From: Planctomycetota bacterium
GTDB taxonomy: Bacteria > Planctomycetota > Planctomycetia > Planctomycetales > Planctomycetaceae
Assembly (NCBI GenBank): GCA_003388505.1
Contig: QQVO01000076.1
Span: 124,001-188,000, forward strand
Direction of reading: 5' to 3'
Length of the DNA stretch: 64,000 nt
Under the pieces are notes generated by a model, which worked only from the letters and a program-made list of their open reading frames with translations, had not been told where the DNA came from and did no database searches. A program made the translations under genes and the position numbers. Each line of letters starts with the position of its first letter. The stretch's first letter is position 1. Positions 1 to 39,723 of this stretch are shown here, piece after piece.

Positions 1-708
1 CATCCGTTCATTCTCGCGGGCCGACTCGGGACGCAGCGCGTTGAGGAATTTTCCCGGCTCATAGGAGAGCGATTCCACCCGGCAGGCCATCGGCACCCGG
101 TTGATGTGCACGTTGAAGATCGACAGGAAGATCCCCACTTTCAGCGCCGGGCCTCCGATGGACTCATCGTGCTCCAATTCCTCGATCTCGACAATCTTTC
201 CATCGGCCGGAGAAACGACCACGCCCTCTCCCGTGGGAATCCGCCGCGGCGGATCGCGAAAGAACCACACGATCAGGCCGCCGATCACCAGCAGCACGAC
301 GGCGTCGATCCCGAAGAACCAGCCCCACGCTCCCCGCGCGCCGAGTCCGAACAGCGCCCACAGGCAGAACGCGGCCGGGACGAACGTCAGCAGGGAGAAC
401 ACGAGCAACTCGGCAAGTCCCACTCGGGCGAACGGCAGCCGGTCGCGCCAGGCGAACGGGTCGTCTTTGGTCTCCCAGTGGTAGCCGCCCAGATTGCGGA
501 AAAACTTGACGTCCCTGGGATCGAACACCGGATGCGGGCAGACGTTCTCACTCCCCTTGCGCGTCCGTTCCATCCGCTGGATGTAACCCCGTCGGAAGAC
601 CCACAGATACCACCGCCGCACGCAGCCCCACGCGAGTTCGAGCCGCATCACGATTCCACCGCCCGGCTGGATTGACGTGATGCGCGGGTCTGTCTGCGGG
701 CTGGCCAT
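1..708 (-). CDS. psd: Phosphatidylserine decarboxylase, C-terminus cut by window edge
   Basis: Decarboxylates phosphatidylserine to phosphatidylethanolamine at the membrane. The visible 236 residues start at ATG 708 and remain open at position 1. After a charged N-terminus, a hydrophobic hairpin (about residues 85-125) leads into the family core: WFFRDPPRRIP, then VVSPADGKI, GPALKVGIFLSIFNVHINR and YEPGKFLNA. The HINR region carries the conserved histidine of the family. The LGST-type serine self-cleavage site that would generate the pyruvoyl group lies outside the window, so activity cannot be judged. The N-terminal extension of about 75 residues before the first membrane segment is longer than in the short archaetidylserine-decarboxylase type. 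It is co-directional with the FxsA gene upstream, separated by 209 bases of repeat DNA. Confidence 0.9.
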   Translation of the reverse strand, partial: MASPQTDPRITSIQPGGGIVMRLELAWGCVRRWYLWVFRRGYIQRMERTRKGSENVCPHPVFDPRDVKFFRNLGGYHWETKDDPFAWRDRLPFARVGLAELLVFSLLTFVPAAFCLWALFGLGARGAWGWFFGIDAVVLLVIGGLIVWFFRDPPRRIPTGEGVVVSPADGKIVEIEELEHDESIGGPALKVGIFLSIFNVHINRVPMACRVESLSYEPGKFLNALRPESARENERM

Positions 709-773
709 GGTGCTGGAATCGGGGTCCGGTAGGAGTCGATGGATGGATGTTGTTCGCAACGCGATTGTAGCCA

Positions 774-868
774 GGTCAGTTCCACACAACTCGGCCGGGA
801 CCCGGCGTCGAGGAAACGGGCCCAGGGGATTCTCGAACAGAACACGGATTTTCGCGGATTCTCGTCCT
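774..868 (+). repeat. Dispersed repeat R1, partial copy
   Basis: Begins GTCAGTTCCACACAACTCGG and runs through a GGGATTCTCGAACAG block to ACACGGATTTTCGCGGATTC. It matches the left third of the fuller copy at 45016-45312 and, in reverse, 8981-9236. The copy stops where a different repeat (852-926) begins. Confidence 0.7.
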
Positions 869-926
869 AGACAGCCCAAACACCGCTCGACGCGGACACA
901 TGGTAAAGCAATTTGCACTAACCATC
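852..926 (+). repeat. 75-base repeat, copy 1
   Basis: Contains CCGCTCGACGCGGACACA followed by an AGCAATTT block. It matches 31724-31799 at roughly 80 percent by eye. It overlaps the end of the R1 fragment, so the two repeats are joined here. It lies just past the fxsA stop codon. Confidence 0.6.
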
Positions 927-1382
927 ACGTTGAATCATGTCGTGCGGTCTCTCGGCGGTTGAACTGTCGATCACCCGGCCGCTCCGGATCTGAATCGTCC
1001 CGCGCACCCAGCGGCTGAACAGCCGCCGATAGCCGCGGCGGCTTGCCGGAATGAGGAAGCTGAAACCAAGGGCGTCTGTCAGCAGTCCCGGTGTCAGCAA
1101 GAGGACGGCGCCCGTCAGAATCAGGACTCCGTCCAGCAACTCCTGGCCCGGAAACTTTCCCTGATTCATTCGCATCCGCAGTTCGTTCAGAACATTCAGC
1201 CCCTGCCTGCGGGCAAGCGCTGCTCCGAGGATTCCCGTACAAGCGATCGTGCCGACAGTCAGCAGAAGCCCGGTCCCGCCCCCCCATTGCGAAGCAATTG
1301 CATGATGGAACTGAAGCAGGATGACCAGTTCCAGCACCGGCACGAGAGTCAGCAGGGCAATCAGAATCAGCAAAGTGCGCAT
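918..1382 (-). CDS. fxsA: FxsA family membrane protein
   Basis: A 154-residue FxsA-family cytoplasmic-membrane protein. Escherichia coli FxsA is known for suppressing phage T7 exclusion by the F plasmid; the normal cellular role of the family is unclear. The start is placed at ATG 1382 because MRTLLILIALLTLVPVLEL is the classic first membrane segment with the family's P-x-x-E motif. The upstream reading frame is arginine-rich shadow sequence. Further hydrophobic segments lie at about residues 33-58 and 76-105, including the GxLLLTPGLLTDALGF motif diagnostic of the family. The basic C-terminal tail is probably cytoplasmic. No strong ribosome site is visible. Confidence 0.85.
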   Translation of the reverse strand: MRTLLILIALLTLVPVLELVILLQFHHAIASQWGGGTGLLLTVGTIACTGILGAALARRQGLNVLNELRMRMNQGKFPGQELLDGVLILTGAVLLLTPGLLTDALGFSFLIPASRRGYRRLFSRWVRGTIQIRSGRVIDSSTAERPHDMIQRDG

Positions 1383-1555
1383 CAGATTAACTGGTTGCCT
1401 GCCAGGCGAGTGTCGCGTCGGAAAGGCTGGTTTGGGCCGCAATCGGCCGGAATGCTTTCGCGGAAACCGGCAGCCGCTCTCGCGCGACCGACACACAGGT
1501 GAACGGTCGCACTGAGCGAGAGCCTACAGCAGTGTACGCGACTCGCCCCGGCAGG

Positions 1556-1885
1556 TCACACCCCTTGACGCGGCGTCGGCTTGCAGGAGCAGCGCAGTTC
1601 CCGCGACTCCTCTCCATCGCCCGCGATGCGCAGAGTCGTGTCGGTGGGGGCTTCAATCCGCATCCAGACGTGCTGAGGATCGATCGTCCTCACGGAGAGG
1701 GCGATCGGCCCCTGACACTGCGGGACTTCCAACCGCGCAGGCTTCCGGCCGACACGGCAGACGTGGCCGATCACCGACCGGGTCTTGTTTCCCAGCGTCG
1801 CGATCAACAGTCCGACCACAACAATGGCTGCCGAGGCAATCAACAGCGGAGCGTACGGCATCATGTCGGTGAGTAAGTTCTGCAT
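1556..1885 (-). CDS. Small single-pass membrane protein of unknown function
   Basis: I do not recognise the family. The 109-residue product starts at ATG 1885 after GAGAGAAT. It has one hydrophobic segment (about residues 12-30, PLLIASAAIVVVGLLIATLG), then a soluble part with predicted beta character (ARLEVPQCQGPIALSVRTID, WMRIEA) and a C-terminus containing CSC. The soluble half could be a small OB- or NfeD-like beta domain, which is only a guess. It lies between the diadenylate cyclase and fxsA on the same strand, so it may be co-transcribed with them. The longer open frame to 2065 is arginine-rich and unlikely to be translated. Confidence 0.55.
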   Translation of the reverse strand: MQNLLTDMMPYAPLLIASAAIVVVGLLIATLGNKTRSVIGHVCRVGRKPARLEVPQCQGPIALSVRTIDPQHVWMRIEAPTDTTLRIAGDGEESRELRCSCKPTPRQGV

Positions 1886-2151
1886 GATTCTCTCACTGTG
1901 GGTGTGTTGGCGCACGGCGTCGATGTTGCAAGCAGCGTGCCGCATTCTTGCCGGTTGCGTATCATCAGACGTCACAACCAGTTCCGCTGAAAGAGGCCGA
2001 AATCGGCCGGGCCGGCCGCATCGTCCCCGGTTCCTCGCAGATCGCCCTGAGCGATCATCGAGCACGCCGTCGCCGGAAGCTCAGCACCGGTAAATGCCGC
2101 GAACGCAGGGGCGGCCCCGGTGGCGGCTGAGAACAATCACCGCCTCTCGCC

Positions 2152-3372
2152 TCAGTTCTTCCCGTCTTCTGGCGCCGCAGTTTCCCCAGTGGGTTGCCGC
2201 TCCATGCCGACGCGGATGTACTGCGGACGCACTTCGACAACCGTCAATCCCTCGGGCAATCCATCGAGGTCCTCCGGATCGACGAAGACGTACTTCCTGC
2301 CCCCGGGCGGTGGAAGCTGAACCGACTGGCGGATTTTCTCCGGGTTGAGGAGGCTGAACGCGTTCGGAGAGCCGGACAACGTCACTTCAACCGTTTGGGA
2401 ACTCGGCCGGCTCACCATCCATCCTTCCGGAGCGCCGGCGAAAGCCAGGGGAATGTCGAGGGTTTGCTGGACGACTTCGACGCTGCGCGTTGCGAACGGC
2501 ATCCAGAGGATGACCGAGACGATGACGGCCACCCCCGCCGTTGCCCATTCTTTCACGGAGACGACTTTCGACCACGATCTTCGCTCAGCGAGATCGCGGT
2601 CGTCGACGAATTGCGCATACAGCGTGCGACATTCCGTCGCAGACGACAGTTCCCGCAATCGACCGTGCTCGGCGACGGCGATCGTGCCCCGCTCCTCGGA
2701 AACAGCGAAGACGAGTGCGTCGCAGCGTTCGCTGAGCCCCAGCGCCGCCGCGTGCCGGGTGCCCCGTTCGCCGAGTTCATCGAGATCGCCGGTCAGCGGC
2801 AGATGGGCGGCGAACCGTTCGATCTTGTCTCCAAGAATAATGACGGCGCCATCGTGCGCGGGAGACTTCCGGTTGAAGAGGCTCAGGAGCAGGGGGACGC
2901 TCACCCGGCCTCTCAGCAACACGCCCCCATTGACGTGCCGGCCGATTGGCTCCCGGCCCTGGAGCACGATCAGTGCTCCAGTCTTCGCTTGCGCCATCTT
3001 GGCGAGCGCTTCAATCAAGCTTCCAATCAGCGATTCCTCGCGTTCTCCGCCGACTGCCTTCCAGCTTCGCCGGGACATCAGGCGTTCGATGCCGGCCCGC
3101 ACGTCCTCCTGGTAGACGATCAGGAATCCCAGCAGCAGCGCCGTCATTCCCACCTGAAACAGAGCCAGCGTGAGGTAAAGATTGAGCCACTGGGACGCCT
3201 GATAGATAATCAGGACCGCCGCCACCAGGGCCACGGCGCTGTACGTTCCGCGTCGCCGCAGCCACGCCAGGGCGACGTAGAGCAGGCAGGCCACCAGCGC
3301 GATATCCAACAGATCCGCCGGACGCATCGCGCGGGAGATCTCTGCCCACATCAATGAAAGCGATTCACGCAC
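2152..3372 (-). CDS. cdaA: Diadenylate cyclase (CdaA type) fused to a YbbR/CdaR-like domain
   Basis: Predicted to make c-di-AMP from two ATP at the inner membrane. Three N-terminal membrane segments (about residues 20-38, 45-60, 66-87) precede a DisA_N catalytic domain (about 100-260) with HDGAVII (DGA at 174-176). The second motif reads GTRHAAALGLSE, so the usual RHR is RHA at 206-208. A fourth hydrophobic segment (276-292) then leads to about 100 residues resembling one YbbR repeat (about 297-395). In Firmicutes CdaA and its regulator CdaR (TM plus YbbR repeats) are separate neighbouring proteins, so this is a one-chain version. The topology is consistent: catalytic part inside, YbbR part outside. 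The start is GTG 3372; ATG 3351 is an alternative that loses seven residues. Confidence 0.9.
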   Translation of the reverse strand: MRESLSLMWAEISRAMRPADLLDIALVACLLYVALAWLRRRGTYSAVALVAAVLIIYQASQWLNLYLTLALFQVGMTALLLGFLIVYQEDVRAGIERLMSRRSWKAVGGEREESLIGSLIEALAKMAQAKTGALIVLQGREPIGRHVNGGVLLRGRVSVPLLLSLFNRKSPAHDGAVIILGDKIERFAAHLPLTGDLDELGERGTRHAAALGLSERCDALVFAVSEERGTIAVAEHGRLRELSSATECRTLYAQFVDDRDLAERRSWSKVVSVKEWATAGVAVIVSVILWMPFATRSVEVVQQTLDIPLAFAGAPEGWMVSRPSSQTVEVTLSGSPNAFSLLNPEKIRQSVQLPPPGGRKYVFVDPEDLDGLPEGLTVVEVRPQYIRVGMERQPTGETAAPEDGKN

Positions 3373-3706
3373 GCGTCATCCGCCATGCACTGCTTCGGCT
3401 TGATCCGACCCGGGTTCTCTTGCAAACACCGTCTGCCGCTGCCGACCGAATGCATGATAGCTTCTCGAAGACGGCGAGGAACGCTCGATTCACGCGGCGG
3501 TGATTCATCGATTCCAACCGCCGCGTACGTCGACACCGCGGAGAACATCGCCGTCGTCAACGGCGCATCGCGCGATTCCGAACCGCCCCTACCGCCCGTC
3601 ATGCGAAAACGTTCGGCTTTTCGCATTGCACGAGAGTTGATAGCATGCCGTTGAGCGGTGAGAGATCGGTCCGAATCGCGATTGAGTCCGACCAACAACT
3701 CACAAC
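3373..3706. other. Intergenic stretch upstream of cdaA and tRNA-Gln
   Basis: No gene, hairpin or repeat could be supported here. It must contain the cdaA promoter (minus) and the tRNA promoter (plus), but no clear -35/-10 pair is recognised. Confidence 0.4.
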
Positions 3707-3776
3707 TGCCCGGTGGTGTAACGGTAGCACGAATGACTCTGGATCATTTAGTCTAGGTTCAAATCCTAGCCGGGCA
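3707..3776 (+). tRNA. tRNA-Gln(CUG)
   Basis: A complete cloverleaf. Acceptor TGCCCGG pairs with CCGGGCA (7 bp). The anticodon stem is AATGA/TCATT with loop CTCTGGA, giving anticodon CTG at 3739-3741. The T stem is CTAGG/CCTAG around TTCAAAT. The D arm has a GTG/CAC stem. CCA is not encoded; ATTTT follows. Confidence 0.95.
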
Positions 3777-4012
3777 ATTTTACAAGTGCTTTCGGGAAAA
3801 AGGGTTATGGCTTCCGGCGGAGATCGGCCGGCCGGCCCGAGACGCTCGTGCTGCGGACTTGCTCCGCGTGGCGGAACGGGAGAAACGCGGGGGCAATCTC
3901 CTGGAGGGATCGCCTGAGTGGTCCGTCGATCCATGATTCTGGAGTTCGGCGCATCGTCTTCCAGCGCGTCGACCTTCCGAACACCTCCGCCGACCGACCG
4001 GGACTCCAACTC

Positions 4013-5086
4013 TTGAAGACTTTGCTTGTCACCGGCAGCAGCGGCCTCGTCGGATCGGAGGCAGTCGAGTACTTCGACCGCTTGGGATGGCGCGTGCACG
4101 GCGTTGACAACAATCTGCGGAGGGAGTTTTTCGGCCCGGACGGAGACACGAACTGGAATCTGGCGCGGCTGCGCGAGGCAACAACGCAGTTCCAGCATCA
4201 CGACCTGGACATCCGCGACCGTGCAGCCGTATCCCGCATTTTCCGGGAGATCGAGTTCGACTTCGTGATCCACGCGGCGGCTCAGCCGTCTCACGATCTG
4301 GCGGCTCGCCGTCCCTTTGACGATTTCGACGTGAACGCCGTGGGCACGATGAATCTGCTGGAAGCCACACGGTCCCACCGGCCGGAAGCGGTGTTCTGCT
4401 TCTTAAGCACAAACAAGGTCTACGGCGACTCCCCCAACGAGTTGCCGCTGGTGGAACTGGAGACTCGCTGGGATTACGCGAATCCCGAACACCGGGACGG
4501 GATCGATGAGACGTGCCGGATCGACCGCACTCTGCACAGCCTGTTCGGAGCGAGCAAGGTCGCGGCCGACATTATGGTCCAGGAGTATGGACGATACTTC
4601 GGAATGAAGACGGCCTGCTTCCGGGGAGGCTGTCTGACCGGATCGCAGCACAGTGCCGTTGAATTGCACGGGTTTCTCGCTTACGTGATGCGGGCGACGG
4701 CGGAGGGGCGAACCTACCGGGTGTACGGCTACCAGGGAAAACAGGTCCGCGACAACATTCACGCCTTCGACGTTTGCCGTGCGCTGCACGCCTTTTACGA
4801 GAATCCGCGTCCCGGAGAGGTCTACAACATCGGCGGCGGGCGGGCGAACAGCGTGTCGGTACTGGAGGCGATCGACCGGGCGGAACAGGCGCTCGGCAGG
4901 CGGCTGAAGCGAACCTACGAGCCGCAGAACCGTGTGGGCGATCACATCTGCTATATCAGCAATCTGGGCAAACTGCAGTCGCACTTTCCCGGCTGGTCGA
5001 TCACGCGATCTCTCGACGACATTTACAACGAAATGGCGGAAGCCTTGCAGGCCGGGAAGAGGCCGAGCGCGGGGGCGGGTGAATGA
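4013..5086 (+). CDS. NAD-dependent nucleotide-sugar epimerase, CDP-paratose 2-epimerase-like
   Basis: An extended short-chain dehydrogenase that probably epimerises or modifies an NDP-sugar for glycan synthesis. The chain opens directly on the Rossmann strand, [16 protein letters not shown], which fixes the start at TTG 4013; no in-frame ATG or GTG lies between it and the distant GTG 3848. The NAD-binding GxxGxxG is at about residues 8-14. The catalytic position reads LFGASK, so the usual YxxxK tyrosine is phenylalanine; I recall this as a feature of a subfamily rather than a mutation. The KQVRDNIHA and VYNIGGG motifs near the C-terminus match CDP-tyvelose/paratose epimerases. It overlaps the next gene by ATGA, so translation is probably coupled. 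Confidence 0.85.
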
Positions 5087-25339: not shown

Positions 25340-26524
25340 ATGAAAACAGTGCTCCAATGCGCCTTGCTTGTTTTTTGCGTGCTCCTCGGGAACCTGCTGG
25401 TGGAACCCTGGGGTTGGAGCGTGTGGGAAATGATCTCTCCCGCGCCCGACGACGCCCCGCCCCCGCCGGCCGAACCCGACGAGCGCAGCCGTGAGCTGCG
25501 CGTGCTGGGCCGCCTGACTCCCACCCACGGGATCATCAACCTCAGTGCAACGCCCGGCGACCGGCTCAAGTCGCTGAACGTCAGTGAAGGCGACCAGGTA
25601 CAAGCCGGGACGCAACTCGCGACGCTCGAAAGCGAGACGCTGCGACAGCTCGAGGTCGAGGCGGCCGAAGAACAGTTGGCGCAGGCGACCGCTCTCAGAG
25701 ACGCAGAAATCAAGGCCGCCGAAGCGCGTCTCCGCGCGTCGGAAAAAGCCCTCGAGCAGGCCCAGGCGAAGAACCCGCAACTCGAACAGCAGAAAAGGCA
25801 GGTTGAACTCGCCGCGCTCAACCTGGCCCAGGCCGAAGCGGATCTCAAACGCGTGCAGGAACTTCGCGCGGACCTGGTCGCCGTGCAGGAACAGGAACAA
25901 CTCGAACTGCTCGTCGAGAAGGCCCGCATCGAGAAGACCGCCGCTGAGACCGCGCTGGACCAGTTGCAGCAGGCAGACGAATTTCAGTTGCAGACGGCCC
26001 GGTCGGAATACGAGGTGGCGTTGGCCGGGCTCGATCAGGTGAAGACTCTCCGTCGGATTGAGCCCTACGAGGCGAAACTCAAGCTGGCGCAATACCAGCA
26101 TGACCAGACGATCCTCACAGCCCCCAGCGACGGAACGATCCTCGCCATCCCGACCAGGCCGGGCGAGTCCGTCACACCCGAGCCGATCCTGCAGATGGCC
26201 GACACGAGCGAGATGAGTTGCATCGCGGAAGTCCACAAATCCGCCGTCGATTCCCTGTCGGTGGGACAACGCGTCCGCATCGAAAGCGACGCCTTCGAGG
26301 GCAGGCAGGTCGCCGGGGAGATTGTCCGCATCGGCAACCAGGTCGATCCGCCGCAGTTGCGGAATCTCGACCCACTGGCGCCGCAGAACCGCCATGTCGT
26401 TGAAGTCCTTATCAACATCGATGAAGGCGTCGCGAACGTTTCGAACCTGATCGATCTCCAGGTCGACGTCGTCATTCTGCCCAGGGAATCGCACGACGGC
26501 GAAACCGGAGACGATGCGCAGTAG
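25340..26524 (+). CDS. HlyD/DevB-type membrane fusion protein of an ABC exporter
   Basis: A 394-residue periplasmic adaptor anchored by one N-terminal membrane segment (about residues 5-22), followed by a proline-rich spacer. The lipoyl/barrel-sandwich halves are at about 60-95 (VLGRLTP..VNVSEGDQVQAG-like) and 255-295 (LTAPSDGTILAIPTRPGESV). Between them is a long coiled-coil hairpin (about 95-245) full of Glu, Ala, Gln and Leu. The beta-barrel region (295-360) ends with DLQVDVVILPRE. It is the first gene of a run with two DevC/FtsX-like permeases and an ATPase, the DevBCA/MacB-type arrangement, and would link the inner-membrane pump to the TolC-like protein encoded convergently. Confidence 0.9.
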   Translation: MKTVLQCALLVFCVLLGNLLVEPWGWSVWEMISPAPDDAPPPPAEPDERSRELRVLGRLTPTHGIINLSATPGDRLKSLNVSEGDQVQAGTQLATLESETLRQLEVEAAEEQLAQATALRDAEIKAAEARLRASEKALEQAQAKNPQLEQQKRQVELAALNLAQAEADLKRVQELRADLVAVQEQEQLELLVEKARIEKTAAETALDQLQQADEFQLQTARSEYEVALAGLDQVKTLRRIEPYEAKLKLAQYQHDQTILTAPSDGTILAIPTRPGESVTPEPILQMADTSEMSCIAEVHKSAVDSLSVGQRVRIESDAFEGRQVAGEIVRIGNQVDPPQLRNLDPLAPQNRHVVEVLINIDEGVANVSNLIDLQVDVVILPRESHDGETGDDAQ

Positions 26525-27912: not shown

Positions 27913-29082
27913 ATGACTGGTCGAAGAATCTCTCTCGCCCGGCAGAATCTCTCGCACGAAAAGACCCGCACACTGATTGCGAGTCTCGGGATCGGCTTTG
28001 CCGTCGTGCTGCTGTTCATCGAGATCGGATTCTACAACGCCTCGCTCGACAGCCCGACCGCGCTGATCCGAATTCTGAACGGCGAACTCATCCTCGCCAG
28101 CAAAGGCAAGTACTCGCTCGTTGCAGAAGTCGGATTCCCGCGCGAACGGCTGATGCAAGCCCGGAACTGTGACCACGTCGAGTCCGCAGCGCCGCTCTAT
28201 CTCCGTCAGATGGGCTGCATTCTGCGAGTGACCGGCAGCCGCGGGTTTCCGATTCGCGTCTTTGCCACCGACCTGAACAACCCGGCCTTGGACCTGACGG
28301 AACTCACCACCTATTTCGACGAACTCTCCCGTCCGCAGACCGCGCTCGTCGACGCAGCCACGCGGGACTTCTACGGAGTTCCAAAAAACGAGGCGGCGCT
28401 CAAGCAGCTCCGTTTTGAACTCAACCGGCAGGACTTGAACCTCGTCGGTCACTTTCGGCTCAATACGGATCTGGTCAACGACGGCAATCTCCTGATGAGC
28501 GACCGGAATTATGCCCACTACCTGGCCGGGCTGTCGCGAGGAGACCCGCTGTCGACCGTCGAACTGGGAGTCATCCGGCTGACCGATCCGAGCACCGCGC
28601 CGGCAGTCAAGGCCCAACTCGAAACCCTCCTCCCGGATGACGTCGCCGTCTATACGATCGACGAATTCGACCGGATGGAGCAGAAGTTCTGGAAGACGCG
28701 CGTGCCCGTCGGGGGCATCTTCTTTGTCGGCGCCGCCGTCGGCTTTCTCGTCGGCGTCGTCATCTGCTACCAGATCATCTATTCCGACGCAGCCGGCCAG
28801 CTTCCCGAATTCGCAACGCTCAAGGCGATCGGTTATCGCCCCCGCTACTTCTACCGCGTCATGATCGAGCAGGCGCTCTACCTCGCGGTCTTTGGGTTCG
28901 TTCCCGGCGTGCTGGCGAGCGTCGTCGCCTACGCCTGGCTTTCCGCCAGCACCGGGCTCGTCCTCCAGTTGACGCCCGCGCGCGTGCTCCTGGTGTTCGC
29001 GTTCACCGTCGCTATGTGCCTCATCTCCGGGGTGCTCGCCATCCGCAAGGTCGTCAGCGTCGATCCGGCCGAACTGTTCTGA
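27913..29082 (+). CDS. DevC/FtsX-like ABC permease, second of two
   Basis: A 389-residue paralogue of the preceding gene. ATG 27913 gives MTGRRISLARQNLSHEKTRT, a basic cytoplasmic start before helix 1; the twelve extra upstream codons look non-family. The periplasmic domain spans about residues 40-265; the C-terminal helices include FFVGAAVGFLVGVVICYQIIY and VFGFVPGVLASVVAYAWL. FATLKAIGYRPRYFYRVMIEQA matches ATLRAIGYRNSYINLVVLQQA of the first permease, and it ends RKVVSVDPAELF against RKVRQADPADLF. It is followed after nine bases by the ATPase gene, so coupling is likely. Confidence 0.88.
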   Translation: MTGRRISLARQNLSHEKTRTLIASLGIGFAVVLLFIEIGFYNASLDSPTALIRILNGELILASKGKYSLVAEVGFPRERLMQARNCDHVESAAPLYLRQMGCILRVTGSRGFPIRVFATDLNNPALDLTELTTYFDELSRPQTALVDAATRDFYGVPKNEAALKQLRFELNRQDLNLVGHFRLNTDLVNDGNLLMSDRNYAHYLAGLSRGDPLSTVELGVIRLTDPSTAPAVKAQLETLLPDDVAVYTIDEFDRMEQKFWKTRVPVGGIFFVGAAVGFLVGVVICYQIIYSDAAGQLPEFATLKAIGYRPRYFYRVMIEQALYLAVFGFVPGVLASVVAYAWLSASTGLVLQLTPARVLLVFAFTVAMCLISGVLAIRKVVSVDPAELF

Positions 29083-29091
29083 AACACAACT

Positions 29092-30255
29092 ATGAACACT
29101 CAAACGATCGTTCCCGAGAACACAGACCGGGCGACTTTCGGCACCCGCCACTGGAGCCGGGAGGGGGAAGGGCCCGTCATTCGGATCTCGGATCTGAACC
29201 ACTGGTACGGCGAGGCGGGCTTCCGCCGCCAGGTCCTCTTCGGCTGCAATCTGCAGGTTTACCCCGGCGAGATCGTCATCATGACCGGGCCGTCCGGTTC
29301 CGGCAAAACCACATTGCTCACCCTGATCGGCGCCCTCCGCACCGTGCAGGACGGATCGGTGTCGGTCGCCGGTCATGAGTTGCTCTCAGCCTCGGCGGAC
29401 GATCTGGTCCGTGTCCGGAGAAAACTCGGGTTCATTTTTCAGCATCACAACCTGTTCCGCTCCCTCACCGCGCTGCAGAACGTGCGCCTCGGCATGGACC
29501 TCTTCAAAGGCTCACCACGCGAACGCAACGAGCGCTCCCGGCACATGCTCGTCAGCGTCGGCCTGAAGGACCACGTGCACAAGAAACCGGGGAAACTCTC
29601 CGGGGGGCAGAAACAGCGCGTTGCAATCGCTCGCGGCCTGGTCCATCAGCCGAAAGTCGTCCTCGCCGATGAACCGACCGCCGCCCTGGACGAGGCCTCC
29701 GGCCGGCAGGTGGTCACCCTCTTCAAGTCCATCGCGGAAACGCAGCGCTGCGCCGTGCTGCTGGTCACCCACGACAATCGCATACTCGACATCGCCGACC
29801 GCATCGTGAACATGGTCGACGGACGCGTGAAGTCCGACGTCCTCGTCCGCGAGTCGATGCTCATCTGCGAGTTCCTGCAGCAGATTCCGGCCTTCAGGGA
29901 AATGCCCGCCTCCGATCTGAGCAGCGTCGCCGACGCCCTCGTCGTGGAAAAGTTCCCGGCCGGCGATGTCGTCGTCCGCCAGAACGAGCCCGGCGAGAAG
30001 TTCTACCTCATCCGGCAGGGACGCGTTCAGGTCAGCGTCGAGAAGGACGGCGCGCAGCGAAACGTCGCGGAACTCGGCGAGGGCGACTTCTTCGGCGAAG
30101 CCGCGCTGATGACCGGCAATCCCAGAAACGCAACGGTCACCGCAACCCAGCCCTCGGTCCTCTATTCACTCGCCAAACCCGAATTCGACCGCGTCCTGGC
30201 CGGCAGCGAGTCATTTGAGGAAGCACTTCGCCATGCCCTGTTTGATCGTCAGTGA
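29092..30255 (+). CDS. DevA-type ABC exporter ATPase with C-terminal cyclic-nucleotide-binding domain
   Basis: A 387-residue protein. The ABC domain (about residues 28-250) has Walker A GPSGSGKT (66-73), Q-loop FQHH, signature LSGGQKQR (169-176), Walker B VVLADEP (189-195) and switch H227. Instead of ending at about 250 as DevA/LolD proteins do, it continues into a cNMP-binding domain (about 255-375) with FPAGDVVVRQNEPGEKFYLI, LGEGDFFGEAALM and PRNATVTA. E336 and R346 stand where cAMP/cGMP-binding CAP-like domains contact ribose and phosphate. The pump may therefore be gated by a nucleotide or other small ligand; this is inference. Its last 45 bases overlap the convergent TolC-like gene. Confidence 0.92.
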   Translation: MNTQTIVPENTDRATFGTRHWSREGEGPVIRISDLNHWYGEAGFRRQVLFGCNLQVYPGEIVIMTGPSGSGKTTLLTLIGALRTVQDGSVSVAGHELLSASADDLVRVRRKLGFIFQHHNLFRSLTALQNVRLGMDLFKGSPRERNERSRHMLVSVGLKDHVHKKPGKLSGGQKQRVAIARGLVHQPKVVLADEPTAALDEASGRQVVTLFKSIAETQRCAVLLVTHDNRILDIADRIVNMVDGRVKSDVLVRESMLICEFLQQIPAFREMPASDLSSVADALVVEKFPAGDVVVRQNEPGEKFYLIRQGRVQVSVEKDGAQRNVAELGEGDFFGEAALMTGNPRNATVTATQPSVLYSLAKPEFDRVLAGSESFEEALRHALFDRQ

Positions 30256-31671
30256 GGTTCCCGCAGGCTGCTCATAGGAGGCGGGCATCAACGGAATCGG
30301 CTCCTGCAGTTCCGCCGCCCCGCGTCGCGTGATCGGGGCGCACTGCTCGATCCAGCCGCATTCCACCGCAAGGGCGCCTTCCGCCTGACGAAGTTTCGCA
30401 AACGCGGTTTCCGCAGCGAATCTGTGACGGACGACTTCGCTTTCGCTCTCAATCCGCTGCAACTCCACGCGAACGACGTCGAAGTACGTGGAGCGTCCGC
30501 TTGCGCGGAGATCCTGAAGGTCCGCAATCTTCTGATCGGTGCGAGACACGTCCCGCTCCGCGAGCGCCATCTCCTCCAGGTGATTCGACGCCTCGCGACC
30601 GTAGCGGACGACTTCATCGACCGCAGATCGTTTCATTGCATTCAACAAGCGGTCCGCTTGCCGCCGGCGCACCGAGAGAACCTGGTCGCCGTCGTGAATG
30701 GCCAGCAGGGAAGACAGAGCACACCCACCGCCGGGGACCGGAATCGTCGATCCCGGATAGGTCTGCTGCAGCATCCCCACGACCGTTGTGGAGGAATTCC
30801 GACTCATGCTGCTCAGGACGAGCCGGGCTGCGTTCAGATCAGGCCGCTGCGAGATGGCGGTCCCGGCGGATTGAGCACGATCAAAGGCTGGAAAAGCCGG
30901 CGGCTCGACCTGCGGATCATACTCCGCGTCGGATGCCGGCCACTCACCCAGCAATAGCTTGAGCGTGCTGTTCGCGCTCACAATCGCCGTTTCCACCTCG
31001 GTCCGCCGCCGCTGCAACTGACTTCTCTGCAGCGCCAACTGATGCTGATCGACCTCGGCGGCAATCCCCCGATCGCGGATCGACTCGAGGTCTGCCAATG
31101 CCTCATCGAGCCTGGCGAGCGAAGCGTCCACAAGTTCCCGCTGACGCCGGGCCTCCGCCAGCCCATAGAACGCCTGCAACGCCCGCCCGGCGGCCAGATT
31201 CGCCGCCTCCGCGGCGCGAAGCTGCAGCAATCGATACCGCAGAACCTCGTCCGGCGTCGGTTGTTTCTTGCAGTTGGGAGTCGACGGCAACTGCAGTTCG
31301 AGCAGAACGATGGCCACCTCGGGCGAAGAGTTCGCCGCGCGGCACATGCAGTCGTATTCAGTCACCGGGATGCCGGCATCGCTGCGACGATTGTTATTCT
31401 CATTGCTTGGCGCGGGCGGCGCCGCAGGAGGAGCGCCGTCCTCCACGTCGACGAACAGCGCGGCTCGTTGAAGCTCTCGCCGCTCATCCGCAGACTGCCG
31501 GCCGGCAACCGGCGCGACCGCCTGCGGAGCGTTGAAGGCGATCTCGGGAATGCGGTGTTCTTCCGGAGCGGCGACGGGAGCACGGCTCACGCGCGCCCGC
31601 TGCGAGCTGCAGCCCGTGCAGAACGCCAGCGCGCCGACAAGTACAAGCTGTCGCCATCCCCGCGAGTACAC
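30211..31671 (-). CDS. TolC-family outer-membrane lipoprotein
   Basis: A 486-residue outer-membrane efflux protein, the likely exit duct for the convergent ABC exporter. GTG 31671 is chosen because a perfect AAGGAGG (31678-31684) sits six bases upstream. The signal sequence ends LAFCTGC, a lipobox. Two long helical hairpins are visible: about residues 150-245 (LRAAEAANLAAGRALQAFY to ETAIVSANSTLKLLLGEWP) and about 350-435 (Arg/Glu/Gln-rich, ending AFAKLRQAEGAL). The EWP motif and ISQRPDLNAARL-like sequence are family hallmarks. The N-terminal region (25-130) is longer and more acidic than usual. Its 3' end overlaps the ATPase gene by 45 bases on the opposite strand. Confidence 0.85.
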   Translation of the reverse strand: MYSRGWRQLVLVGALAFCTGCSSQRARVSRAPVAAPEEHRIPEIAFNAPQAVAPVAGRQSADERRELQRAALFVDVEDGAPPAAPPAPSNENNNRRSDAGIPVTEYDCMCRAANSSPEVAIVLLELQLPSTPNCKKQPTPDEVLRYRLLQLRAAEAANLAAGRALQAFYGLAEARRQRELVDASLARLDEALADLESIRDRGIAAEVDQHQLALQRSQLQRRRTEVETAIVSANSTLKLLLGEWPASDAEYDPQVEPPAFPAFDRAQSAGTAISQRPDLNAARLVLSSMSRNSSTTVVGMLQQTYPGSTIPVPGGGCALSSLLAIHDGDQVLSVRRRQADRLLNAMKRSAVDEVVRYGREASNHLEEMALAERDVSRTDQKIADLQDLRASGRSTYFDVVRVELQRIESESEVVRHRFAAETAFAKLRQAEGALAVECGWIEQCAPITRRGAAELQEPIPLMPASYEQPAGTSLTIKQGMAKCFLK

Positions 31672-31723
31672 GCGCAACCTCCTTGACGCTATAGCGCTTT
31701 GCGAAACAGTGTTGGCGATCTGT

Positions 31724-33477: not shown

Positions 33478-36400
33478 TTACTCGCCCGCCGTCGAGTTCG
33501 GCAGCGACTGAATGAACTCCCAGATCGCCTCGAACTGCGCCGACGCGTCGCCCCCCAGGATCGACTGCACACGGGTCGTGCCGTCTTCGGCGGCGAGGCG
33601 GGGCATGCGGATGTTGATGTCGTACTTCGGCGGATCGAGCACGAACCGCCGATAGAAGTCGTGCCGCATCCGGTCCTGGATGTGCATGAAGTTGATGCCG
33701 AGAGCGATGCGGGTCTTCTCGTCCCCGCGCGGCTGGTCGCTGCCGACCCCGTGACACTGCCGGCAATCAAGATGCGCCGGCATCGTCAACTCGCGGCCGA
33801 GATCGACAAGCGCATCGTTGGCGACCTCCGGCCCTGACGGCTCGTCCGTTTTGCCGAGCAATCCATGTTGAGCCGCCAGCCCTTCCGCAAGGATGTCCGC
33901 ATAGGCGGGAAACGCCGGCATCCGCGCCGGCAGCCAGGGCCGCATCGGCTCGTCGATTTCGCCCTTCAGCAACCGGGCGATCCAGCCGGTCCTCAGCTTC
34001 TCCCCGGTCCAGGTGAGATTGGGGATGTGCTCAGGAACCAGCCCACGCCGTCCTTCTTCCACCACAATCAACCGCCGGGAACTCTGCTCGCCATCCCGGT
34101 TGTGACACGAAGTGCAACGGAGCTGGCGGATGAGGCGCTCCGAAGACTGAACAATCGAGCTGCGCAGGAGCGTGTATCGTCCGTACATGACGAATTTCGC
34201 GAGCTCGGCTCGTTCCTCATCTGAGAAGCCATAGTCAGGAACGAGTGGGGGCTTCTCCCCTTCCTTCAGGCAACCGCTCGAACGAGGGTCGGTGCCCAAG
34301 AATGGGACAGTTTTGGGGAAGATTCTCACTTTTGGCCGTATCAATTCGGGCGGCTGATTACGGCCGTCGGTATGGCAATTCGCACAGCCGATAGAGACGA
34401 AAAGGTCGCGCCCTTTGGGAGAGTCGCCTTGAGGCAGCGGAGTTTCATTGTTCAATTCACCGTCGGCCGCCTTGTGCAGGTACGTCGCCAGTGCCGCAGC
34501 CTGTTCTGCGGTCAGCCGGAAGTCGGGCATCCGCGAGTAGCGGTAGTGGGCGTGCGGAGCCGTAAGGAATCCTCTCAGCCCATCGTTGGTAAACTTCTCG
34601 GTCACAAAGTCGAGCGACAGGCGATCGTAGTCGTCAGCGAGTTCTGGCTTCCCAAAGTGATGGCACGTGATGCAGCCGAGGTCTTCGAAGAGCTGCTGAC
34701 CGACATCGGCGTCAGCGCTCTCGTCGGGAGCAACCACAACGCTCTCGTTCTCAACTCCGTCGTTTTCGGCAGAAAACAGCCACGCCGTCAGATCGGCTGC
34801 GTGTTGCCTGCTAGTCGACTCGTCGAATCCTTCGAGCATCGCCGGCATGCGATGGTGATCGCGGACACTTTCCGGATCAATCAGCCAGGTCGAAACCCAT
34901 TCGGGAGTCAGTCTCCCTCGCAGTCCGGACAAACGAGGCGCATCGGCCAATAGTTCGGGCATGACGTCGGCCGTCTCATCAGCATCGACGAACGGCCCGT
35001 GGCAACGGGCGCAGCGCGAGACCGCGAAGAGTTCGCGAGCAGTGAGGAACTCCGTATGCGCTCGCTGTTCATCCGTCGTTTGACCCCAGTACCTGTCTCC
35101 ATTCCAGTACAGAGACTCCGGCGGGAGCGTGTCCATCGGTGTCGTTCCGAATTGAGGCCGGAGTGCAGACCGTGATGCCGCCTCATACGGGCCCCAGAGG
35201 ATCCGCAGACGAGACGCGCCGTCCGGCGGGCTCTCGTATTCGATCTCGATACGGTTGTAGCCTTTGTGCAGCGCGGCTATCTGAGCTTCGGCACTTCGCA
35301 GATCGGCTCCCTCTGCACTGAAGACGGTTTGCTCGTTAATGGATAACCGCACGCGACCGTTGCCTTCCGCCGAAAAGCGGTAGTCGTTGCTCAGATCAAT
35401 CCGCAAATATCCGTCGGCAATGGCGAGAAATGGGCCTGGCTGTAGTCCTAGACTGAGTCGCTCATCTCCGGCGACTGCCAGCGCTGCAACGCGGGACGTC
35501 AAGAAACTCACGTGCTGGACTCGGACTTCGTCGACTGTTTGTCGGAAATACCACCGCAACCCAGGTGCAAGCGCTGCTTCGACCTCCTCCGGCAACGCCC
35601 CTGCCGGTTCCCGCCGCACGAGCCGCGTCGGGTCCATCATCTCCTCCGGCACGGCATGTAGCGTATGCGTGTACGTCTGCCGAATGCGCTCGCCGCTGGC
35701 GGCAGAGATGCGGTAGGTGACGGCGAACTGGTTGACGGGCACGAGCGGGGGCGTCTCAATAAAGACCGTCCGGCCTTCGTCCATCAGCGTGGCGGAGAGG
35801 ACGTCGACCGGGTCGCGGCCTTCCTGATTCGGGTTGGCGACGCTCCAATCGGGCGAGCCGTAGGATTCGGAGTAGCGGTAATTCCACTGCTCGATGGCGT
35901 AGTTGCCTGGGTCCTGGGCGGTGTCCGGATCGAGCGGTTCGGAGAAGGTGAGAGAAAGGCCGTTCTGCATCGTCCGCACGGCGGTCGGCAGCGCGGTCCT
36001 CTTGCCGGTGTAACGCAGCCGCTGCAGGCAGCCGTCGGTGACGGCCCGCGTGGTCCAGCCCCGGAGGCCGCTCAGGTAGAGCTGTCCATCGTGCGGACTG
36101 ACGCGGCCTCGCATGATTCCCGAATCGAAGTCGGCCGGGATCGTCAGCACACCGGCCTGCTTGACGCCGTTGACAACTTCCTTGAGAACCAGCAGCGGTC
36201 GGCATTGACCGTAAGAGAGGTGCAGCATCTTGCCGGCGAGCGGACCCCAGTCGGGATTGGTGGCCCACACCTGTCCGCCGCTGGAGTTGTCCTCCCGGCG
36301 GGGGATCCAGGCAATCGGCCTGTCATAACCGAGCGGACGATTATCGGTCACCTGCGGTCCGCGAAACCCGAAGTGGGCGCCGGGCTGTACGACGAAAATG

Positions 36401-39400
36401 CCCGAGGCGGGCGTCCACTCGCCCTCCTGCGGCGCCACCGTCACGACGTCCCCGGGGCCGAGCCCCATGCCATTGGGATTCCGCAGGCCGGTCGCCACCG
36501 TCTCCAATGACTGACCGTCGGCAGCGACCTTCACGACGCCCTGCGTGGCGTGCACGAACCAGAAGTTGCCCTCGGAGTCGGTCTCGAGACAGGCGACGTA
36601 GTCGTGCCCGCCGGCCGACGTGAAGTGCAGGTTGCTGAAGCACTCGTAGTGATCGGCCTCGCCGTCGGCGTTGCGGTCGTACAGCCGGGTGATCTGGTCG
36701 CGACCGAGCACATGGACCACATCGTCAATGATCTTGAGGCCGAGCGGTTGGAACAGACCGGTGGCGTACCTTCGCCACGTGAGGTCTTCGAGGTTTTCGT
36801 CGACGCCGCTCACGGTCCAGACGTCGCCATGCGCTGTGCAGAGCGCAACCCGTCCGTCGGAGAAGAAGTCGTGACCACCGACGAAGAACAGGGCGTGATA
36901 CGGGTTGTCAAACGGAATCGTGATCGTGTCGACGACGTAGGCGGCGTCGGCGTCCGAGCGCAACCCTTGCGTCGTGATGTCCTCGGTCCAGCGGGCGTCA
37001 GCCGGTTGCATCCAACTCTCATCGAACGGCGTCTGCTCAATCGAACCGAGAATCTCTTCAGCCGCCTGCTCGCTCGCGTTCGGTGCGGAAAAATACACAA
37101 TATGCAGCGAGATGGTCTCCCCGTGCGGTTGAATCTCGAATGCTCCTGTCGGCTCATCGGATTCAGTAAGCTTCGCAACTCCTTCGTCAGCCACCGCGAC
37201 GGCGAACCAGTTGGTATCGTCCCGTTTCACGTGCAACGCAGGGCGCCCCGCGACTGTGATTGCAGTGACCTCTCCCTCAGCGCCGGAGAGCGTGTTGAGG
37301 ACCATCGATCGATCCGCCGGCGCAACCTGAAGCGTGCGCACAACGAATGGCCCCGTCCCGGTTTCGCCCGCCCACGGCGACTCGCGGACCAGCACGGCAT
37401 CGACTTCGTACTCAAGGACAACGCGGTCTTCGCCGGGATACATGCCGCGATACTGGACGATTGCGTCGTCACCCCAACCCGGTCCTTCCGGGAGGAAGAA
37501 CAGCGGGTCGCCGTCCGGCAGCGGGGTGCCGATGAGGCCGTAGCGGGCCGGATTGAACTTCAGAAAGCCACCGGTCCACGCCCCGCGCAACCTGCAGAAC
37601 TCGGTATCGTAACAGACGGCTGCGTCGCGATCGTCGCTGACGCGGATCGTCAGTCCTTTCCGGACTGTTCCGCCGGGAAGTCCGACCAGGCACGCCAGCC
37701 AGTCGCCGACGTCGGTCTCCTGCCAGCGGCCGTCGACCGAATCGCTCTCGAACCAGTCGAACCCGACGACCTCGCGGCCCCAGTGGTTTGGTTCTCCCGC
37801 AGCGGCGTTCTCTTCACGGAGAGCGGCGGCCCCGCGTTTCTTCTTCTCCGGCGGATCGTCGGCCTGAGTCTGAGCGCCCTCTTGTGGTTGCTCGGCAGGC
37901 GCAGTCGCCGGGTCGAATTCCACGACTCGTCGTTTCGCGCACCAGGCGACCGCCCGGCGAAGCATTTCGCACGCTTCGAAGGCTTCGTACGTTCGCTCAC
38001 TGTGGCCGAGCAACGTCTGAAAGACGCGTCCTTTGCCGTAGGTATAGGTCCAGGCCAGCGGCTCATCGCGACCGGTGTCTTTGGATCGCGCCGCAATCAG
38101 CGGTTCGATCGGCGCGGTTCCGTCCTGCCGGTAGTACAGTTCGTCGACGACGTCGAAGTCGCTCAGCCCGCGAATCACCGGATGATCGACGTCGAGCACT
38201 TCTACGGTGTACGGGCCGAACGCATCGTGGCCGCTCTTCGCGTCCCCTTCGCCGTCGTGGTTCCAGACGCGGCGGACGATGTTGCGGTATTCCGGCCAGT
38301 CGGACTCGCCCGCCATCGGCAGAGAGTAATGCCAAGCGCCGTTGGCAAAGTGAATCAGGATCAGACCGCCGCCTCGTTGCATGAAATTGACGAACGATTT
38401 CCGCGCCTCCACGCTCAAGGGCGTCGGATCCTGCCAGTTGGCGTAACTGTTCTGCACGATGACGTCGTAATCCTCCAGCGGCCTGCGCGCGAGGTCTTCG
38501 ATGTCGTTCGAGACATCGACCCGAACGCGCGGGTCGAGTTCCAGTTGCGCCCGGATGGCGGGCGTGGTCTGCTCCCAGTTGTGCCATTTGTGGGCCTCGT
38601 TGCCGGCGAAGATCAGAACGCGGATCGGTTCCTCTTCGACAACCGCCCGCTCTGTTCCGGTTCGCCCGGCAAGCGCGGCTGTGATCTCCCGATGTGTGTA
38701 ATACCGGGCCTCGACCCCTGATGCGGGAGGTTCCAGCCCGGCGGTCCAGACGAGGGCGTTGAGAATCAGCTTGCGGAATTCGGCGTGTCGCCAGTTGTCG
38801 TAGAAGTGGCCGCAGGTCGTGGCGAAGCCTCGCCCCCCATCGGGTCGCTCCCTGGCCCAGGCCACGACGTTCCCGTCGGGTTCCCGTCCCGGCAGGACCG
38901 GAACCGACAGGATCGGAACAACCTTTCCGGCCGCGTCTGACTCCGGGAAGCGGATGTTGAAATAGAATTCTTCCTTCATCGAAAAGGGCGCCACGCCGCG
39001 AAGCAACGGATGCTCCGGCGTCGCAGGCTCGATTTCGGTTTCGTGGACCTCGATGGCGGAATACCACCGGCCATTTTCGTCCCAGTCGAAATAGCCGCCT
39101 GTCCAATCGAAGGACTGCTGCGCGAAATTGTCCGGAGCGAACGTCGAGAAGTGGAATGTGACGAAGCCGCAGCCGCGGTCGATCTGCCGCTGAACAAGGG
39201 CCGCTCGCTGTTCGCTCGCGAAGTGGGGCGCTTCCTCGTACTTGTCTCCGTCGCGGCCGTCGGAGACGACCATGATCGTATCGGCGTCGCCCAAGGTCGT
39301 TTCATCTTCCGGCCAGCCGCCGATGTGATACTCGACCACGACGTGCTCGCTGACGTTCGAGTTGTCGAGCATCACTTTGAGCAGTTTCACGGACCACGGG

Positions 39401-39567
39401 TAGTCATGGATTCCGTTGCCGACGGGGCCGTGGCTCTTGGGACCGGCGATGAGGACGACTTTGCGCGGCGCGGAGTCAGCCGCGCGGGACCGGCTGCAGA
39501 GGTGCAAGGCCGCGAGAAGAATCAGTCCGGTCGCAAACAGAGAACGAGCGATCACCCAGGCGCGCAT
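33478..39567 (-). CDS. Giant exported ThuA / propeller / five-haem cytochrome c protein
   Basis: A 2,029-residue protein. ATG 39567 begins a signal peptide (VIARSLFATGLILLAALHLC, cleavage near SRAADS). Order of domains: ThuA-like 1 (about 35-300, VVLIAGPKSHGPVGNGIHDYP), ThuA-like 2 (about 310-540, VLIFAGNEAHKWHNW), a Lys/Glu-rich linker, a DUF6797/DUF1080-like beta region (about 590-850), a PQQ-dehydrogenase/NHL-type propeller (about 880-1240, GLRNPNGMGLGPGD), an Ig/PA14-like stretch (about 1260-1480), and a cytochrome part with five CxxCH motifs starting at Cys1519, 1632, 1728, 1818 and 1935. It may couple sugar oxidation to electron transfer; this is inferred from related planctomycete and verrucomicrobial proteins. 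ThuA domains are linked to trehalose and disaccharide use. Confidence 0.85.
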   Translation of the reverse strand: MRAWVIARSLFATGLILLAALHLCSRSRAADSAPRKVVLIAGPKSHGPVGNGIHDYPWSVKLLKVMLDNSNVSEHVVVEYHIGGWPEDETTLGDADTIMVVSDGRDGDKYEEAPHFASEQRAALVQRQIDRGCGFVTFHFSTFAPDNFAQQSFDWTGGYFDWDENGRWYSAIEVHETEIEPATPEHPLLRGVAPFSMKEEFYFNIRFPESDAAGKVVPILSVPVLPGREPDGNVVAWARERPDGGRGFATTCGHFYDNWRHAEFRKLILNALVWTAGLEPPASGVEARYYTHREITAALAGRTGTERAVVEEEPIRVLIFAGNEAHKWHNWEQTTPAIRAQLELDPRVRVDVSNDIEDLARRPLEDYDVIVQNSYANWQDPTPLSVEARKSFVNFMQRGGGLILIHFANGAWHYSLPMAGESDWPEYRNIVRRVWNHDGEGDAKSGHDAFGPYTVEVLDVDHPVIRGLSDFDVVDELYYRQDGTAPIEPLIAARSKDTGRDEPLAWTYTYGKGRVFQTLLGHSERTYEAFEACEMLRRAVAWCAKRRVVEFDPATAPAEQPQEGAQTQADDPPEKKKRGAAALREENAAAGEPNHWGREVVGFDWFESDSVDGRWQETDVGDWLACLVGLPGGTVRKGLTIRVSDDRDAAVCYDTEFCRLRGAWTGGFLKFNPARYGLIGTPLPDGDPLFFLPEGPGWGDDAIVQYRGMYPGEDRVVLEYEVDAVLVRESPWAGETGTGPFVVRTLQVAPADRSMVLNTLSGAEGEVTAITVAGRPALHVKRDDTNWFAVAVADEGVAKLTESDEPTGAFEIQPHGETISLHIVYFSAPNASEQAAEEILGSIEQTPFDESWMQPADARWTEDITTQGLRSDADAAYVVDTITIPFDNPYHALFFVGGHDFFSDGRVALCTAHGDVWTVSGVDENLEDLTWRRYATGLFQPLGLKIIDDVVHVLGRDQITRLYDRNADGEADHYECFSNLHFTSAGGHDYVACLETDSEGNFWFVHATQGVVKVAADGQSLETVATGLRNPNGMGLGPGDVVTVAPQEGEWTPASGIFVVQPGAHFGFRGPQVTDNRPLGYDRPIAWIPRREDNSSGGQVWATNPDWGPLAGKMLHLSYGQCRPLLVLKEVVNGVKQAGVLTIPADFDSGIMRGRVSPHDGQLYLSGLRGWTTRAVTDGCLQRLRYTGKRTALPTAVRTMQNGLSLTFSEPLDPDTAQDPGNYAIEQWNYRYSESYGSPDWSVANPNQEGRDPVDVLSATLMDEGRTVFIETPPLVPVNQFAVTYRISAASGERIRQTYTHTLHAVPEEMMDPTRLVRREPAGALPEEVEAALAPGLRWYFRQTVDEVRVQHVSFLTSRVAALAVAGDERLSLGLQPGPFLAIADGYLRIDLSNDYRFSAEGNGRVRLSINEQTVFSAEGADLRSAEAQIAALHKGYNRIEIEYESPPDGASRLRILWGPYEAASRSALRPQFGTTPMDTLPPESLYWNGDRYWGQTTDEQRAHTEFLTARELFAVSRCARCHGPFVDADETADVMPELLADAPRLSGLRGRLTPEWVSTWLIDPESVRDHHRMPAMLEGFDESTSRQHAADLTAWLFSAENDGVENESVVVAPDESADADVGQQLFEDLGCITCHHFGKPELADDYDRLSLDFVTEKFTNDGLRGFLTAPHAHYRYSRMPDFRLTAEQAAALATYLHKAADGELNNETPLPQGDSPKGRDLFVSIGCANCHTDGRNQPPELIRPKVRIFPKTVPFLGTDPRSSGCLKEGEKPPLVPDYGFSDEERAELAKFVMYGRYTLLRSSIVQSSERLIRQLRCTSCHNRDGEQSSRRLIVVEEGRRGLVPEHIPNLTWTGEKLRTGWIARLLKGEIDEPMRPWLPARMPAFPAYADILAEGLAAQHGLLGKTDEPSGPEVANDALVDLGRELTMPAHLDCRQCHGVGSDQPRGDEKTRIALGINFMHIQDRMRHDFYRRFVLDPPKYDINIRMPRLAAEDGTTRVQSILGGDASAQFEAIWEFIQSLPNSTAGE

Positions 39568-39609
39568 GCGGCTGTTCCTCGAAAGTGCAACGGGAAGTGA
39601 GACTCTGCC

Positions 39610-39723
39610 AGTAGGCCGGACCAAGCGCAGCGCAGTTCCGGCAGGAACAGCAGAGATTGGTCTCATCACCAGGTTCCCAGCATTGCCGGAGCGGCGTCGC
39701 TGCGCTCCTTGATCCGGCCTACT
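39610..39723. repeat. BIME: inverted pair of REP elements
   Basis: The left arm starts GTAGGCCGGACC (39611) and reads through GCGCAGCGC to TTCCGGC. The right arm (39684-39722) runs GCCGGAGCGGCGTCGC to ATCCGGCCTAC. The two arms are imperfect inverted copies with GTAG/CTAC outer ends. It lies in the 356-base divergent gap between the giant gene and the response regulator; the rest of that gap shows nothing. Confidence 0.75.

Follow-up and report, generated by a model that had tools for sequence, protein, structure and literature searches.

A planctomycete ABC ATPase that continues into a cyclic-nucleotide-binding (CNB) domain raises the question whether an export pump may be controlled by a small ligand directly at its ATPase. 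Such a protein is encoded in the 64,000-nucleotide stretch of DNA analysed here (the window), by an open reading frame of 387 codons without interruption. The genome, 6.8 Mb in size, carries this fusion, designated DevA::CNB, in single copy. A sequence-only reading of the window had taken the protein for a DevA-type ATPase with a built-in sensor, and had considered direct ligand control of a tripartite pump an uncommon arrangement.

The fusion gene and its two domains

The N-terminal part of DevA::CNB was identified as a member of the DevA family by the NCBIfam profile TIGR02982, with 333.3 bits for residues 29-246 against a curated cut-off of 295.8, and Pfam ABC_tran gave 115 bits. Walker A (GPSGSGKT, including K72), the signature LSGGQ (169-173), Walker B (LADE, D193-E194) and the switch His (H227) are all present, and the four motifs are kept in essentially all of the 76 planctomycete fusions compared. 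Both the DevA-type assignment and the completeness of Walker A, signature and Walker B were thus borne out. Behind the ATPase, the CAP-type cNMP domain that had been claimed was recovered by Pfam cNMP_binding (PF00027) over residues 286-370 with 87.5 bits (E 6e-25; gathering cut-off 27.5). The closest solved relatives of this part are the regulatory domains of cGMP- and cAMP-dependent protein kinases (E 2e-41 to 1e-32), and the profile scores together with these solved-structure matches rule out a chance match.

In the AlphaFold model (pLDDT 84.5, pTM 0.66), the ATPase is followed directly by the CNB helices, the beta roll and two C-terminal helices. Foldseek with the whole model returned MacB, MetN, LolD and other ATPases, solely ATPases among the 50 matches listed. 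Among the matches listed in both sequence and Foldseek searches of solved structures, we found no single chain spanning ATPase and CNB. As for unfused DevA, the statement that it ends near residue 250 agreed with the finding that the C-terminal extension is shorter than 40 aa in 104 of 113 DevA matches, the remainder being mostly the CNB fusions themselves. A DevA of Acidobacteria (Sulfopaludibacter; L067, 5926-7260) carries a C-terminal extension of 200 aa with no similarity to CNB. The features of the locus are listed in Table 1.

Table 1. Genes of the operon, domains of the fusion protein and the convergent neighbour, with window positions
Feature	Position	Strand	Evidence
DevB-type periplasmic adaptor (membrane fusion protein), 394 aa, gene 1 of the operon	25340..26524	+	TIGR02971 193.6 bits vs cut-off 129; Pfam HlyD_3, HlyD_D23
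DevC1, FtsX/MacB-type permease, 385 aa	26627..27784	+	TIGR01185 316.1 bits vs cut-off 290.35; FtsX, MacB_PCD; DevC1 clade support 99
DevC2, second FtsX-type permease	27913..29082	+	TIGR01185 257.1 bits, under cut-off 290.35; FtsX 46.7 bits; DevC2 clade support 89
DevA::CNB, ABC ATPase with C-terminal CNB domain, 387 aa	29092..30255	+	ORF; Pfam and NCBIfam profiles; AlphaFold model
DevA-type nucleotide-binding domain, residues 29-246	29176..29829	+	TIGR02982 333 bits; motif counts in 76 fusions
CNB module: N-terminal helices ~251-283, beta roll ~284-361, C-terminal helices 362-371 and 373-386	29842..30252	+	PF00027; solved matches; model secondary structure
Phosphate-binding cassette F334-A351, with Glu336 (30097-30099) and Arg345 (30124-30126)	30091..30144	+	Conservation counts in fusions
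F-x-R-Q tail at the C-terminus (residues 384-387, FDRQ in this protein), part of the last helix	30241..30252	+	Conservation by pocket state
Convergent outer-membrane efflux (TolC/NodT-like) gene	30211..31677	-	Weak: OEP 12.9 bits (cut-off 22), NodT 22.7 bits (cut-off 210)

The operon, its permeases and its distribution

The fusion gene is the last gene of an operon with the order DevB-DevC1-DevC2-DevA::CNB, and is separated by a gap of 9 bp from the end of DevC2. This operon contains a DevB adaptor and a DevC permease, DevC1, both above the curated cut-offs of the DevBCA families (Table 1), and it carries two permeases in place of a single DevC. For DevC2 and the outer-membrane gene the curated cut-offs are not reached, and therefore their names rest on position and trees. 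The reading frame of DevC2 is open from TTG 27877, and ATG 27913 is the likelier start as read from comparison with DevC1. The fusion gene shares its last 45 bp (30211-30255), tail-to-tail, with the outer-membrane gene that converges on it. About 20 other loci carry a homologue of this outer-membrane gene in the corresponding position next to the fusion gene. Beyond this gene, the all-against-all comparison of flanking ORFs gave no conserved neighbour that would name the cargo. Elsewhere in the window, a 2063-aa ORF on the minus strand (33478-39669) shows by eye repeated CXXCH-like heme motifs and a ThuA-like start.

Among the 76 planctomycete loci, the same gene order was observed wherever the contig allows. 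The exceptions are family f2, to which Pirellula belongs and whose fusion gene and DevB often point in divergent directions, and locus L155, in which the fusion gene directly follows DevB. The verrucomicrobial loci carry the same operon. In the permease tree, DevC1 and DevC2 formed separate clades, both set apart from the DevC proteins that belong to unfused systems. By this tree they are two old, co-inherited paralogue clades, indicating a co-inherited two-permease subtype and more than a domain swap. Unfused DevA systems, surveyed in many phyla, have nearly always one DevC, and two were found in L051 and L096. The system of L096 (Myxococcota) is DevB-DevC1-DevC2-DevA without the CNB domain, representing either the ancestral form or a loss. 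In locus L228 of genome G341 (274-4200, 392-1594), DevA ends in a C-terminal GAF-like domain, recognized by eye, in place of CNB, and the first gene of this cluster encodes a separate CNB-CPBP (Rce1-like) membrane protein; this is another way in which a DevBCA system can be equipped with a sensor for small molecules.

Full-length fusions were looked for in samples of genomes. Of 397 drawn from the class, 71 carry one, representing 42 of 185 genera, and so do about 8 of 169 other members of the window's order. Further fusions were found in one genome of another class, in 5 of 150 Verrucomicrobiota, all with pocket and operon intact, and in 2 of 292 cyanobacteria, one of which is Chlorogloeopsis fritschii PCC 6912. 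The recurrence across the class and in Verrucomicrobiota rules out an isolated oddity of one genome. The search for this architecture in Planctomycetota, as proposed from the sequence, was thus positive. The arrangement is no curiosity of one genome; it is a subtype that recurs and has an operon with two permeases.

In the first ATPase tree, the planctomycete fusions formed one cluster (support 91), apart from rows on long branches; L156, L067, L096 and L208, which stand on such branches, were left out of the second tree. With Verrucomicrobiota added in the second tree, the PVC fusions need 2 changes. They may share one origin, as more than one is not forced by the tree. The cyanobacterial fusions are taken to be of separate origin, because they are nested inside cyanobacterial DevA in the ATPase tree. 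These cyanobacterial DevA proteins (L237, 9548-11020; L253, 8470-9912) carry two tandem CNB domains, with the Glu/Arg pair present in the first and absent from the second.

The nucleotide pocket and the class III cyclases

The phosphate-binding cassette of DevA::CNB reads FGEAALMTGNPRNATVTA and includes both the Glu and the Arg of cyclic-nucleotide-binding CNB domains (E336, R345). The pocket Glu had been placed correctly at residue 336, while the Arg had been assigned to residue 346, one off from its actual position. Among the 76 planctomycete fusions, Glu is present in 59, Arg in 58 and both residues in 58, L156 being the sole fusion with Glu but without Arg. For the 59 non-decayed fusions, the counts are 59/59 for Glu, 58/59 for Arg and 59/59 for Ala347, and F334, G335, E336, L339 and A347 are invariant. 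Since Glu, Arg and Ala347 are near-invariant although the CNB domains average just 44% identity, the sequence comparison indicates strong selection on the pocket. All 5 verrucomicrobial fusions likewise keep both Glu and Arg. The residue after the pocket Arg is Asn in 47 of the 76 planctomycete fusions, in place of the usual Ala or Thr; a call between cAMP and cGMP from this residue was dropped because the pattern is non-canonical.

Class III cyclases are the proposed source of the cyclic nucleotide. The window's genome encodes two of them, L031 with a response-regulator part and L032 with FHA and GAF-like parts, as the domain parts were read from sequence; planctomycete class III cyclases are coupled to FHA, GAF or response-regulator parts. 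FHA-type class III cyclases adjoin the fusion operon in four independent lineages, L153/L154 (sister species), L163, L196 and L209, and the layout in L153, L163 and L196 is the operon, the convergent outer-membrane gene and then the cyclase. These 4 independent cases compare with about 0.1-0.3 expected from a background of roughly 97 full-length cyclase relatives in 74 genomes and 1.03 Mb of locus DNA (Poisson probability about 1e-5 to 2e-4). The presence of an FHA-type cyclase in a genome proves little, because this type is near-universal in the class (326 of 397 genomes), and for this reason it was rejected as a marker of the fusion; weight is given only to the adjacency and to the pattern of pocket loss described below. 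The linked cyclases possess the Asp of the catalytic metal site along with the Asn/Arg pair, and their base-selecting Lys is replaced by Asp. Asp at this position was observed in L031, L032, L153 (12262-14088), L163 (2644-4518), L196 (11701-13560) and L209 (907-2796). An AC-versus-GC call from the base-selecting residues was dropped, because Asp for Lys is non-canonical. Our search of the literature on planctomycete cyclic nucleotides found nothing relevant.

The CNB domain could be a working sensor for a ligand other than cAMP or cGMP. The CNB-containing N-terminal region of HetC from Nostoc PCC 7120 bound ppGpp in vitro with a Kd of 59 uM, the best of an extensive ligand list including cAMP and c-di-GMP, and the CNB domain of HetC is required in vivo (PMC10986499). 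For DevA::CNB we regard such a ligand as unlikely, because the cyclic-nucleotide-specific Glu/Arg cassette is kept in 98-100% of the non-decayed fusions and because four lineages have a class III cyclase physically linked to the operon.

The 17 planctomycete fusions without Glu formed one clade in the ATPase tree (support 84), and their genomes all belong to family f5. In these loci (L210-L225 and L227), the CNB fusion is retained, and Glu, Arg and the F-x-R-Q tail are lost. An F-x-R-Q-like tail was found in 54 of 59 fusions with an intact pocket, versus 2 of 17 with a decayed pocket; the five verrucomicrobial fusions end in F-x-R-(G/A) or FGR. As traced on the tree, pocket and tail were thus lost together in one clade, a pattern expected for two parts of a single switch. 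Two genomes of this family each have one intact and one decayed copy (G558, L184 and L211; G653, L196 and L227). At least one class III cyclase is encoded in all 52 genomes with a Glu-keeping fusion, and none in 8 of the 13 genomes with decayed copies only; outside the linked loci, this correlation reflects largely one phylogenetic event in one clade and not many independent events.

Homologues without the Glu/Arg pair, which had been named beforehand as evidence against ligand binding, do therefore exist, but in one family only and as a single coherent loss, the pair being kept elsewhere. Retention of CNB in this family after loss of both contact residues (17 of 76 fusions) implies that the domain can do something without them, and CNB as a whole might be taken as a fold remnant, or as a dimerisation or anchoring element without small ligand. 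This explanation is quite improbable, since the 17 copies represent a single clade from which the tail was also lost, and since the Glu, L339, the Arg, A347 and F334-G335 are nearly invariant elsewhere, a constancy that structure alone would not demand.

Comparison with known transporters and a model of gated export

DevBCA-HgdD is the heterocyst glycolipid exporter of heterocystous cyanobacteria (PMC8277102). The system described here is similar with respect to DevA and DevB over the family cut-offs, a DevC permease and a putative TolC-like partner nearby, but differs in the C-terminal CNB and in having two permease genes versus one, and we have no evidence for heterocyst-type glycolipids. 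It also resembles HetC, an ABC exporter with CNB in its cytosolic part, the function of which requires CNB (PMC10986499). HetC is, however, a peptidase-containing single chain with an N-terminal CNB, whereas the C-terminal CNB here is attached to a separate DevA-type ATPase; only ABC_tran and cNMP_binding pass the Pfam cut-offs in DevA::CNB, and the C39 peptidase and transmembrane part of a HetC-type PCAT are absent from the chain. In MetN (C2 domain), ModC and OpuA (CBS, c-di-AMP), the ATPase subunit ends in a ligand-binding domain that gates transport (PMC10710835), and a domain of ligand-binding type is predicted at this position in DevA::CNB. Unlike DevA::CNB, these are importers with unrelated sensor folds and no CNB. 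The regulatory CNB of cGMP- and cAMP-dependent kinases and of the MlotiK1 channel share the CNB fold and the FGE...PRxATV cassette, and gave the best sequence matches among solved structures, but they belong to kinases or channels with no ABC ATPase and differ from most of the fusions in the residue that follows the Arg. CNB domains also occur fused to MFS transporters (PMC10710835), in which CNB is likewise a plug-in regulator of transport; the MFS proteins are secondary transporters and not ABC. By the tested scores, the DevA::CNB system is a member of both the DevA family and the CNB superfamily, and is neither a plain DevBCA, having two permeases, nor of HetC type. A description of a DevA-CNB fusion was not found in the literature searched.

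Direct ligand control is a supported, and the best, reading of this DevBCA-type tripartite pump with CNB, as far as sequence can tell. We consider it fairly probable that the system belongs to the tripartite exporters of DevBCA/MacB type (type VII), represents a kind belonging to Planctomycetota and Verrucomicrobiota, and is gated directly by cAMP or cGMP. DevC1 and DevC2, two different permeases, would form the membrane part as a heterodimer, and DevB and the TolC-like protein would carry the path to the outside. By analogy with known ABC transporters, DevA would supply the ATPase dimer with two DevA subunits, placing two CNB domains under the dimer. Each C-terminal CNB would bind cAMP or cGMP from the class III cyclases of the cell, and the ligand would displace the C-terminal helices together with the F-x-R-Q tail, which may either help or hinder closure of the ATPase dimer, by analogy with MetN, ModC and OpuA. 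Export would then track the level of the cyclic nucleotide, and no new transcription would be needed.

For the cargo, a lipid of the envelope or a similar compound is a reasonable guess, because DevBCA-HgdD exports heterocyst glycolipids, and the guess gains weak support from an NTE-type lipase gene that three genomes from the window's order have directly downstream of the fusion gene. Its product is an NTE-type patatin phospholipase that itself contains two CNB domains (L152, 3151-5973; L157, 415-3300; L226, 4287-7115). Such a neighbour might suggest that CNB senses a ligand for another output, for instance recruiting the lipase next door, with no gating of ATP hydrolysis, but this is very improbable given that CNB is covalently attached right behind the ATPase and that C-terminal ATPase domains gate transport in MetN C2, ModC and OpuA CBS (PMC10710835).

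Gating of the ATPase by a cyclic nucleotide, when joined with the other parts, leads to a wider scheme that we judge evenly poised between right and wrong. In a PVC subtype of type VII systems, nucleotide from FHA- or response-regulator-coupled class III cyclases would bind the ATPase and gate envelope export in real time; the arrangement would have a second origin in cyanobacteria; and one planctomycete family would later have cut the nucleotide control and kept the pump.

Most of what is known of cyclic nucleotides in bacteria concerns their binding to transcription factors. If the proposed gating is true, a pump that reads a cyclic nucleotide on its ATPase would be a direct switch from second messenger to export, and the class III cyclases of Planctomycetota and Verrucomicrobiota would gain a concrete target. 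The sister clades, with the pocket kept in one and lost in the other, are a natural pair for testing the gating. Recurrence of the four-gene pump in Planctomycetota and Verrucomicrobiota suggests that a whole envelope-spanning exporter may be switched directly by a cyclic nucleotide.
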